Assembly: GCA_002159065.1 (NCBI GenBank)
Contig: LZRV01000085.1
Location: forward strand, 1 to 64,000
Reading direction: 5' to 3'
Origin: Paenibacillaceae bacterium ZCTH02-B3
GTDB lineage: Bacteria > Bacillota > Bacilli > Paenibacillales > Paenibacillaceae
Length of the DNA: 64,000 nt
Each line of letters begins with the position of its first letter. Position 1 is the stretch's first letter. Below are positions 23,657 to 30,041 of the stretch, in pieces. The notes under the pieces were generated by a model. It was not told the origin of the DNA. It saw nothing but the letters and a program-made list of their open reading frames with translations, and searched no databases. The position numbers were made by a program, and so were the translations under genes.

Positions 23657-23738
23657 CGGTACTTGCGGGGCGCCTGCCTTTTCGGCGCCCGACTTGCAGC
23701 CGCTGCCTTTTCGCCGCCCGCGTGCGGGTTTGGCCAAA
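23657..23738 (+). other. Intergenic stretch with a GC hairpin
   Basis: GGGCGCC (23668-23674) and GGCGCCC (23684-23690) form a 7-bp hairpin shortly after the stop codon. There is no T-run, so it is only a possible weak terminator for the preceding gene. The four-palindrome element starts at the end of this stretch. Confidence 0.4.
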
Positions 23739-23929
23739 TCGGACATCGGGTCCGAGAAAGACAACGGAAAACGGTTCCGCGAAAAGTTTTCGGACATATG
23801 GTCCGATGCGCGCATGCTGCGCCCGCGAAATCGTTTTCATTGGGGTTGGAGCGCGTTTATTCGGACGTATGTCCGAAAAAATTTTAATAGGGCCGTTTTC
23901 GGCTTTTTTTTTCGGACTGGATGTCCGAA
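23739..23929. repeat. Four-palindrome intergenic element, copy A (191 bp)
   Basis: Four palindromes TCGGAC-N4/5-GTCCGA lie at 23739-23755, 23790-23806, 23861-23876 and 23911-23929, with core starts spaced 51, 71 and 51 bp. The first two read GGACAT on the left side and the last two read ATGTCC on the right side, so the array is an imperfect inverted repeat of two half units. GAAAACGG (23767-23774) in the left half recurs as CCGTTTTC (23893-23900) in the right half. The same architecture, with different palindrome arms, recurs at 29833-30023. Function unknown. Confidence 0.85.
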
Positions 23930-23964
23930 TTGCTTTCGCGCAGGCCATTTTTTGATCCGGTGTA

Positions 23965-28022: not shown

Positions 28023-28900
28023 GATTGCTGCATCGTCTCCGCACGATGGATTGGAGCCGTTGGCTGCGGGCGGAACTTGCGCATTGCCCGGTGTGCGGAC
28101 GCGCTTTCCGGCCGGTTGCCGTTCCGCTTCCCGTCGCATCGGGGCAGCCGCGCCGGGAGCTGGGCGCCCTGTGTCCGGATTGTGCGGACCGCATCCCATG
28201 GATTCTTGCTCCGTTGTGCAAGGTTTGCGGCCGTCCGGAACGGTGCGAGGACTGCCGCCGCAGGCGCGAAACGCATTTCGTCGTCTCCCGGAGCGCGGTG
28301 CGTTATGACGGGACGATGCGCGAATGGTTGGCCCTCTACAAGTATCGCGGCGCGGAGCGGCTGGAACCGGTGCTGGCGGCGATGCTCGCCCACGCGCTGG
28401 AACGAATGGCGGCCGAACTGGGGTTCGACGAACCCGGGAAGGCGTTCGGCATGATGACCGCGGTGCCGCTGTCGGACGAACGTCTGGCGGAACGCGGTTT
28501 TAACCAGGCCGAACGCCTGGCCCGCCGGCTGGCCGGTTGGTACGGCATTCCCTTTGCCCCGCTGCTCCGCCGGATTCGCCACACCGACAAAATGAGCTTC
28601 AAATCGCGCAGCGAACGGCTGACGGATGTCCGGGGCATTTTTTCGCCTGATCCTTTGATCGCCGCTGTGCTTGTCCGTCGCTCGCATTCCGTTGCCGCTT
28701 GTGCGCGCCAATCGTTATCCGCCGCCGGATCCGGCCGGCGCCCGCCGGTGAGCGGCAACAGCCCGCGTCCTTTGTACCGCATCCTGATCGTGGACGACGT
28801 CTATACCACCGGCAGCACCATGAACGAAGCGTCGCGGATTTTGAAAGGCGCGTTGGGCGCGGGATTTGAGCTGTTCGGCCTGACCTGGGCGAGATCGTGA
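28019..28900 (+). CDS. comFC: ComF-family phosphoribosyltransferase-like protein
   Basis: The 293-residue product has an N-terminal zinc ribbon (CPVCGR ... LCPDC ... CKVCGRPERCEDC) and a phosphoribosyltransferase fold ending in the PRPP loop ILIVDDVYTTGSTMNEASRIL. ComFC is needed for full transformation efficiency together with ComFA. It is longer than the usual 230-240 residues because of an arginine/serine-rich insert of about 35 residues (LVRRSHSVAACARQSLSAAG) just before the PRPP loop. The insert might disturb the active site. It starts inside the end of comFA (ATGA). Confidence 0.93.
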   Translation: MRLLHRLRTMDWSRWLRAELAHCPVCGRAFRPVAVPLPVASGQPRRELGALCPDCADRIPWILAPLCKVCGRPERCEDCRRRRETHFVVSRSAVRYDGTMREWLALYKYRGAERLEPVLAAMLAHALERMAAELGFDEPGKAFGMMTAVPLSDERLAERGFNQAERLARRLAGWYGIPFAPLLRRIRHTDKMSFKSRSERLTDVRGIFSPDPLIAAVLVRRSHSVAACARQSLSAAGSGRRPPVSGNSPRPLYRILIVDDVYTTGSTMNEASRILKGALGAGFELFGLTWARS

Positions 28901-29040
28901 GGAACTGTCGGACAGATCTCTGCATGGCTGAGAACCGATGGACAAGGTCCCGACTTGTGCGGGATCGTGAGAGAACCGTCGGGTAAGGCCCAACTTGGAT
29001 GGGATTGTGAGAAACCGTCGGGCAAGGTCCCATATTGGAG
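28893..29040 (+). repeat. Imperfect tandem repeat, about four units of 34-40 bp, after comFC
   Basis: Units start near 28893, 28927, 28963 and 29003, each of the form GATCGTGAGA-GAACCGTCGG-(N)AAGG(T/C)CC-(N)ACTTG. Units 3 and 4 are the most similar. The first unit covers the comFC stop codon. No gene is seen between comFC and 29167. Confidence 0.7.
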
Positions 29041-29166
29041 ACCCGTGCGGGCATAAATTCCGGCTAAGTCTTGGCAATCGAAGACATGCTGTGGTCGTGA
29101 AGCACACGCCGCTTTGAACGCTTGTGTCGGAGCGGTTTTATATTTTTGGAAAGGAGACAGGGAGCC

Positions 29167-29853
29167 ATGGACGGATTTGACAAAATGTACGAGGCTTGGC
29201 TGAACGGACAGATTGCCGGGGAGAAAAACCGCCGCAGAAGGGAACTGCTCGAAAAGGGCCTTGGGCACGGTACCGTAGAATTTTTGCGCAATGTGTGGTT
29301 TCCGGCGATTGGCAACTTCGACCATCTGCATGCGGAATGGGAGGTGAGGGACTTTCACGGCGGATACCGGTATCTGGACCTGGCGTACCTTCCGGGCGGG
29401 GCCAAGGGCGGAATTGAAATCCAGGGCTACGGTCCCCACGCCAGGGATCTGGATGTCAAACGGTTCAAAGATCTTTGTTGGCGGCATTGCCTGCTGGCCT
29501 TGGACGGATGGCTCCTGTTGCCGATCGCCTACCTGTCCATCCGGGATGAACCGGAGAAATGCAGGCAGCTGGTTCTTGCCTTCGTGGGCAGATTCGTGTC
29601 TTTTTCCGTTCCGGCCTGCCTCGGCAGCATGGAGGCGGAGATCCTGCGTTTCGCCCGGAGAGTGCTCCGGCCTTTTTCCGCGATTGAAATGGCGGATCAT
29701 TTGCGGATTACCGACCGCCATGCCCGACGGCTGTTGAACGGCATGGTCGAATCGGGCCATTTGCGGGTGGTTGGCGGCAATCGGAGGTACAGAACCTATC
29801 AGGCGGATTTTGCCATGAGTACGCCAAAGCCCAACGGACATTTATTCCGTTAG
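29167..29853 (+). CDS. PD-(D/E)XK nuclease-like domain fused to winged helix
   Basis: The 228-residue product starts at ATG 29167 (GGAAAGGAGACAGGGAG upstream). Residues about 55-125 contain GGYRYLDLAYLPGG-x4-IEIQGYGPHARDLDVKRF. The spacing Asp71 ... Glu84-x-Gln86 ... His91/Asp94 resembles the catalytic core of DUF559/Vsr-like PD-(D/E)XK nuclease folds. Residues about 160-215 look like a winged helix (ILRFARRVLRPFSAIEMADHLRITDRHARRLLNGMVESGHLRV). I recall similar proteins in several Paenibacillus genomes, without a known function. The last codons (NGHLFR-stop) lie in the first palindrome of element B. It could be a DNA-acting partner of that element or a regulator; neither is proven. Confidence 0.75.
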   Translation: MDGFDKMYEAWLNGQIAGEKNRRRRELLEKGLGHGTVEFLRNVWFPAIGNFDHLHAEWEVRDFHGGYRYLDLAYLPGGAKGGIEIQGYGPHARDLDVKRFKDLCWRHCLLALDGWLLLPIAYLSIRDEPEKCRQLVLAFVGRFVSFSVPACLGSMEAEILRFARRVLRPFSAIEMADHLRITDRHARRLLNGMVESGHLRVVGGNRRYRTYQADFAMSTPKPNGHLFR

Positions 29854-30023
29854 AAAATGGAAAAACAATCCCGCCGAAATACAACGGACATTCAGTCCGT
29901 TAGCGCGATCGGAGTTCAATGGAAAACGTTTGCAACCGCTCTATGGGCGGTCCTAACGGACTGAATGTCCGTTAAGATTCCAACTCATCCGATTTTCGGA
30001 TCGTAACGGACCAGATGTCCGTT
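29833..30023. repeat. Four-palindrome intergenic element, copy B (191 bp)
   Basis: Palindromes AACGGAC-N5-GTCCGTT lie at 29833-29851 (one arm base changed), 29883-29901, 29955-29973 and 30005-30023, with starts spaced 50, 72 and 50 bp. Copies 2 and 3 are exact inverted copies of each other over 21 bp (29883-29903 and 29953-29973). As in copy A, the left pair reads GGACAT and the right pair reads ATGTCC. The total length, 191 bp, equals that of copy A. The first palindrome overlaps the end of the preceding gene. Confidence 0.88.
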
Positions 30024-30041
30024 GGGTTCGCCAAAATCCGA

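Follow-up and report, generated by a model that had tools for sequence, protein, structure and literature searches.

A predicted nuclease/winged-helix gene associated with a leader RNA and four-palindrome arrays: a candidate chromosomal repeat system in Bacilli

Introduction

RAYT, together with the REPINs, is the best-known case of a bacterial enzyme tied to a dispersed population of palindromes, and this system serves here as the reference for comparison (PMC3116915, PMC8049555). The RAYT gene is single-copy and vertically inherited (PMC8049555). In other phyla, CGTC-tagged REPs are dispersed extragenic palindromes for which no transposase or associated gene is known, and the text describing them does not mention Paenibacillus or Firmicutes (PMC3733652).

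We analysed a stretch of 64,000 nucleotides from Paenibacillaceae bacterium ZCTH02-B3 (contig LZRV01000085.1, positions 1 to 64,000 of the forward strand), hereafter the window. A preliminary description of this DNA had noticed a gene with a nuclease-like core and a winged-helix C-terminus joined to a palindrome array, and had likened the pair to the REP/RAYT pattern while holding the enzyme to be unrelated to RAYTs. In the open-access literature that we searched, no such gene-array system is described. Our analysis adds to that first picture an oriented four-unit array geometry, a leader RNA upstream of the gene and a second gene/array family in the same genome.

A gene joined to a four-palindrome array

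The gene lies at 29167..29853 on the forward strand, as supported by its open reading frame, homolog conservation and predicted fold, and encodes a protein of 228 amino acids. The palindrome array reported at its 3' end is real: it spans 29832..30024, and its first palindrome holds the stop codon of the gene. The array consists of unit 1 (29832..29852, forward strand), unit 2 (29882..29902, forward), unit 3 (29954..29974, reverse) and unit 4 (30004..30024, reverse), centred at 29842, 29892, 29964 and 30014 and thus spaced by 50/72/50 bp. Since the units are slightly asymmetric, each has an orientation, and their order is ++--. The second array, said to lie 6 kb away, was also found, at 23737..23930; it stands alone, belongs to the same family and shares the architecture of four units, here built on the variant TTCGGAC..GTCCGAA, with units at about 23737, 23788, 23859 and 23910 (spacing 51/~71/~51 bp). 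The window contains 10 palindrome matches against 1.95 expected, a number reached in 0 of 100 dinucleotide shuffles. An array sequence model, R1, matches the gene-adjoining array with an E-value of 1.7e-15, this array being itself one of the 56 rows of the model, and did not report the 23737..23930 array in the window, which is too divergent.

The proposed pattern, in which one gene carries an array and many further arrays stand alone, extends to the whole genome of 3.12 Mb: the core CGGACATNNNGTCCG occurs 56 times, compared with once for the reversed control, and complete arrays of four units number at least 13, with a spacing of 50/51, 70-73 and 50/51 bp. Units and spacing are common to these arrays; the sequence between the units is not visibly so. 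Degenerate direct repeats of 35-70 bp (GATCGTGAG..AACCGTCGGGCAAGG) occupy 28879-29040 of the window, in the interval that separates the upstream gene from the leader described below.

The protein is predicted to carry a nuclease fold and a winged helix

A structure prediction was run on the complete protein (mean pLDDT 84.7), and it returned an N-terminal domain with PD-(D/E)XK topology, as the preliminary description had proposed from the motif; modelled separately, this domain reached a mean pLDDT of 87.7. D71 and E84-x-Q86 are placed on two strands next to each other, which is how the core fold of the PD-(D/E)XK superfamily arranges D and (D/E)-x-K and would make the protein a member by predicted fold. 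Foldseek searches of the PDB with this domain gave the R2 retrotransposon endonuclease and Can2 as leading matches, and Card1, Cas4, Bax1 and RecU further down the list; all of these are PD-(D/E)XK nucleases, although the E-values are modest, the best being 5e-3. The motif residues of the window protein are D71, E84-x-Q86, H91 and D94; D71, E84, H91, R93 and D94 are invariant in two sets of 28 and 43 homologs, and Q86 is kept in at least 90% of the homologs of these sets. The third motif position, canonically a lysine, is Q in the window protein and K, D or E in paralogs (ExK/ExD/ExE). From the modest fold matches and the conserved motif, the N-terminal domain is thus predicted to be a PD-(D/E)XK-type nuclease. 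The C-terminal domain (winged helix at about residues 154-213) gave MarR-like matches, in agreement with the winged helix first noted there.

Profile searches were consistent with a protein outside the named families. No family of Pfam, NCBIfam, PADLOC or PHROGs names the whole protein; of the anti-phage families in PADLOC, SoFic alone overlaps weakly with the winged-helix region (E 0.023). Neither the DUF559 and MTES_1575 (Vsr-like) profiles nor a sequence search of solved structures for a nuclease produced a match. An origin of the gene from phages or plasmids was considered and rejected, on finding no viral-contig or phage match and a single distant plasmid match.

Homologs occur in 115 of the 151 genomes of the order, at 1-15 copies per genome, and their hosts include Paenibacillus, Cohnella, Thermobacillus, Bacillus, Gracilibacillus, Virgibacillus, Aquibacillus and Halalkalibacter, among others. 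Its carriers in the Paenibacillus/Bacillus group include many bacteria of soil. A distant homolog elsewhere in the phylum (locus L308, genome G345) has neither leader nor array.

Most genes are paired with an array of their own

Among 80 named homologous loci in Bacilli, a four-unit array adjoins the gene in at least 64, strong arrays being those above 60 bits in the refined scoring (64 loci with an intact gene). An independent search for four units in the order ++-- beside the gene was successful at most named loci and gave candidates in 3 of 81 shuffled regions, all of them weak. Strong arrays usually begin no more than 300 bp from the stop codon, and an array attached to a gene mostly lies on its 3' side. 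The units measure about 21 bp and are generally spaced by 50/51, 62 and 50/51 bp; in a few genomes, that of the window included, the central spacing is 70-73 bp, which is one helical turn more. Conservation ends sharply at the array edges. The unit consensus is TAACGRAC..YCGYTATT, and palindromes are alike within a locus and different between loci. Co-variation across the unit dyad is clear at one position pair only, because most of the others are nearly fixed or unpaired. The arrays were also considered as structured RNA, a reading that we rejected as they have no Rfam match and their helical-phase spacing points to DNA.

The sequence of the units follows the gene tree: the core class changes 7 times on this tree compared with 19.4 times in shuffles (0 of 200 as low), and unit distances correlate with gene distances (Mantel r 0.43, p 5e-4). 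Nominal values of r are 0.46 for the winged-helix part and 0.32 for the nuclease part. Pairing is also seen inside single genomes, since Paenibacillus vini, P. terrigena, Paenibacillus sp. 32O-W and Cohnella thermotolerans each contain two genes of different clades together with two different arrays. Among 20 distant paralogs (34-43% identity), 11 have four-unit arrays scoring at least 54, compared with at most 47 in 200 shuffles; their palindromes are unrelated, for example ATAAGACCC..GGGTCTTAT, TAACGGTC..GACCGTTA and TAGTTGCAC..GTGCAACTA, and the array geometry is the same.

The genome of the window itself has a second gene of this kind, and its arrays fall into two separate families. The second gene, on contig C75, encodes a paralog of 36% identity with an E-x-K motif and weak DUF559 and MTES_1575 matches, both below the cut-offs (13.5 bits vs 20.6, and 13.0 vs 38.2). 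Its array lies upstream of the gene, and the corresponding dispersed family, with unit GCGACAAAAATGCCATTATT, is found at C30, C41 and C52 and, as partial copies, at C66 and C90; this family is distinct from that of C85. Tandem repeats of about 58 bp stand upstream of the array of this paralog (L124:1520-1700).

Array number is associated with presence of the gene

R1 detected arrays in 109 of the 151 genomes of the order. The preliminary description had called for a genome-wide correlation between gene and arrays, and arrays proved not equally common: they are present in all 73 genomes with a close homolog and in 36 of 78 without one (Fisher p 5e-16, species treated as independent). Across the phylum, 6 of 250 genomes matched the model, 4 of these 6 belonging to the same family. 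A partial array was noticed in a small genome elsewhere in the phylum (G408:C60:52429-52572).

In one genus represented by 76 genomes, the gene or a trace of it was found in 26, mostly as a single copy, and several copies are broken by stops or frameshifts. Genomes of this genus with an intact gene have a median of at least 65 array strand matches, nearly all reaching this value and the lowest having 53, compared with a median of 42.5 and a lowest value of 6 in genomes without the gene (Mann-Whitney p 1e-5, species treated as independent). Copies broken by stops, frameshifts or truncations were recorded at L093 and in G153, G159, G177, G182, G188, G194 and G200, indicating repeated loss. Some genomes, such as G181, G197 and G202, keep many arrays despite a broken or missing gene, and the decay of arrays after gene loss thus appears slow. 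G082 has lost the gene and its array; what it retains is the leader, at the syntenic position, and about 5 weak arrays. G081, G108 and G145 have the gene and approximately one array.

Arrays vary in position and avoid promoter regions

At orthologous intergenic sites, an array can be present in some genomes and absent in others, and a clean empty site was found in G184 for the array at G024:5954225. For exact insertion boundaries, G024 and G038 (~80% identity) are too diverged, and the closer species G181, G184 and G211 were used. Spacers are mostly unrelated within one genome, so that recent copying of whole arrays is seen for one subfamily only; this subfamily occupies many non-orthologous sites in its genus, with 75-83% identity over ~240-265 bp. 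Clear direct flanking repeats are likewise limited to this amplified subfamily, and a general target-site duplication was not found, the longest flanking repeat measuring 6.1 bp vs 5.5 bp in controls and coming largely from one subfamily. Comparison of G024 with G181 and G184 over 5.86-6.26 Mb also revealed numerous clean indels of 180-210 bp unrelated to the arrays, which suggests other small mobile repeat families. At L316 (G024:6024600-6026300), an array with an intact ortholog in G038 is interrupted by an element carrying ORFs of 278 and 105 amino acids, labelled IS3-like from ORF sequences judged by eye.

The amplified subfamily, found in genus g7 (L165, L155 and relatives), sits within a GGGCTGTCCC..GGGACAGCC palindrome, a terminator or small repeat, and is flanked by AGGGCT(GTC) direct repeats. 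This insertion into the GGGCTGTCCC palindrome with a AGGGCTGTC direct repeat is what would be expected if an unrelated transposase moved the arrays as ordinary MITE-like elements and the nuclease gene hitchhiked beside one of them. We consider this very improbable, since array sequence tracks the nuclease gene both in paralogs and within single genomes, array number tracks presence of the gene, and no transposase gene was seen beside it within the window.

All 27 arrays examined for their gene context, some of them orthologous to each other, are intergenic. Twelve lie between convergent genes and none between divergent genes, vs 25% of gaps that are divergent. In aligned pairs, a few of which may be paralogous, the units change at approximately half the rate of the spacers. 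These data bear on the possibility that the nuclease fold is catalytically silent and that the protein serves to regulate transcription or to structure DNA, the arrays being operators or terminator-side regulatory sites. The MarR-like winged helix, the ExQ motif in place of ExK, the conserved palindromic sites in helical phase and the slower change of units would all fit such a factor. However, the avoidance of promoter regions, the usual position of the attached array 3' of its gene, the invariance of D71, E84, H91 and D94, and the existence of multi-paralog genomes with private arrays together with repeated gene loss, which is unusual for a regulon, make this explanation unlikely in our opinion.

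Another possibility is that arrays are sites of benefit to the host that organise the chromosome, in segregation, nucleoid structure or replication, with the protein as their binding partner. In two complete chromosomes starting at dnaA, the origin-proximal half holds 32 of 38 arrays (G024) and 31 of 35 (G038), a bias uncontrolled for gene or intergenic conservation, and extragenic placement and the slower change of units point in the same direction. Yet the gene is absent from most species of the 76-genome genus, any trace being found in 26, and the presence of arrays varies at orthologous sites, so that we regard this possibility as more doubtful still than a regulatory role.

A conserved leader RNA precedes the gene

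Directly upstream of the gene, at 29092..29146 on the forward strand, conservation and covariation define a leader RNA (GGTCGTGAAGCACACGCCGCTTTGA...TCGGAGCGGTTTT) made of the hairpin CGTG-AAGCA-CACG and, after it, an intrinsic terminator with hairpin and T-run. Of 81 close loci, 59 have the leader upstream, as do all 21 distant paralog loci read, and the leader model matches upstream of 56 of 60 listed genes, mostly within 70 bp of the start. The strict leader pattern occurs almost only at the gene, G082, with its leader and no gene, being an exception. In 53 sequences, pairing reaches 98.6% in one helix and 91.9% in the other (93.6% of cells overall), compared with 30-49% for slid controls, and 13 of 16 pairs have changed on both sides, with 68 such cells vs 13.8 in shuffles. 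Neither leader nor array has a relevant match in Rfam.

The leader looks like a transcription attenuator. A role as guide RNA was judged unlikely because the leader is near-identical across systems with different palindromes.

A proposed three-part system

We propose that leader RNA, nuclease/winged-helix protein and four-site target array form a three-part chromosomal repeat system, to which we assign a probability of roughly 0.6. Sequence comparison is what establishes how the locus is built and the leader structured, that the geometry hardly varies, that arrays are paired with genes, that array number is associated with presence of the gene and that copies lie at non-orthologous sites; from these we infer low expression by attenuation, array binding, cleavage and a copying mechanism. 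The built-in terminator of the leader would keep expression of the protein low. The array of about 190 bp would be its specific DNA target, bound at the four sites by winged helices, probably as dimers, the TA(A/G)CG half-sites of each palindrome being most likely recognised. Because spacing is near a whole number of helical turns, the four sites may lie on one face of the DNA, where a symmetric complex would assemble and the nuclease domain would nick or cut. Rare gene-dependent processing would then copy arrays to new intergenic sites and maintain the array population, as proposed here by analogy with REPINs and RAYT.

Whether this amounts to an undescribed class of intragenomic replicators in Bacilli, in which a leader-attenuated nuclease/winged-helix protein propagates and maintains private four-site arrays, with several systems per genome each having its own specificity, we consider an even bet. 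Many paralogs each come with their own array, and these provide natural protein-site pairs for work on specificity.

Comparison with known systems

The Vsr/DUF559/EDxHD-type PD-(D/E)XK nucleases, which include homing endonucleases, have in common with the window protein a D..E-x-(Q/D/K)-G..H..D signature. Unlike them, the protein described here falls below curated cut-offs, carries an extra winged helix and is tied to dispersed arrays; its gene sits beside such arrays and is not linked to an intron, an intein or an empty target site. TnsA of Tn7 combines a restriction-type nuclease with a winged helix in the same domain order. No sequence match to TnsA was found, and it is absent among the Foldseek matches listed; in contrast with Tn7, no TnsB/C partner was recognised next to the window gene, and the arrays are not known Tn7 ends.

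The CGTC-tagged REPs are likewise dispersed extragenic palindromes, whereas the arrays described here have an associated gene. Closest in behaviour is REPIN/RAYT: in both cases, short extragenic palindromes, mostly paired or grouped, are dispersed in many copies per genome, their number is associated with a gene, and this gene is chromosomal; the gene described here is, in the genus examined, mostly single-copy and syntenic. This part of the REP/RAYT-like reading given in the preliminary description therefore stands. The part that does not is structural, as the GTAG/CGTC end tag and the head-to-head or tail-to-tail pair are absent and replaced by a four-unit ++-- array, and RAYT is a Y1 HuH single-strand transposase whereas the protein here has a predicted PD-(D/E)XK fold and a winged helix. 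Pfam searches found no Y1 transposase either for the window protein or among the families listed for 28 members, as expected from the earlier view of unrelated enzymes. The fixed four-site geometry, helical spacing and terminator-bearing leader RNA further distinguish the two. The system thus behaves like REPIN/RAYT and is not a member of it, since the enzyme is unrelated, the GTAG tag is missing and the geometry is four-site. If our proposal is correct, it would represent a second, unrelated enzyme with the ecology of REPIN/RAYT, indicating that this lifestyle evolved more than once and raising the question of how a nuclease of the double-strand type maintains repeats.
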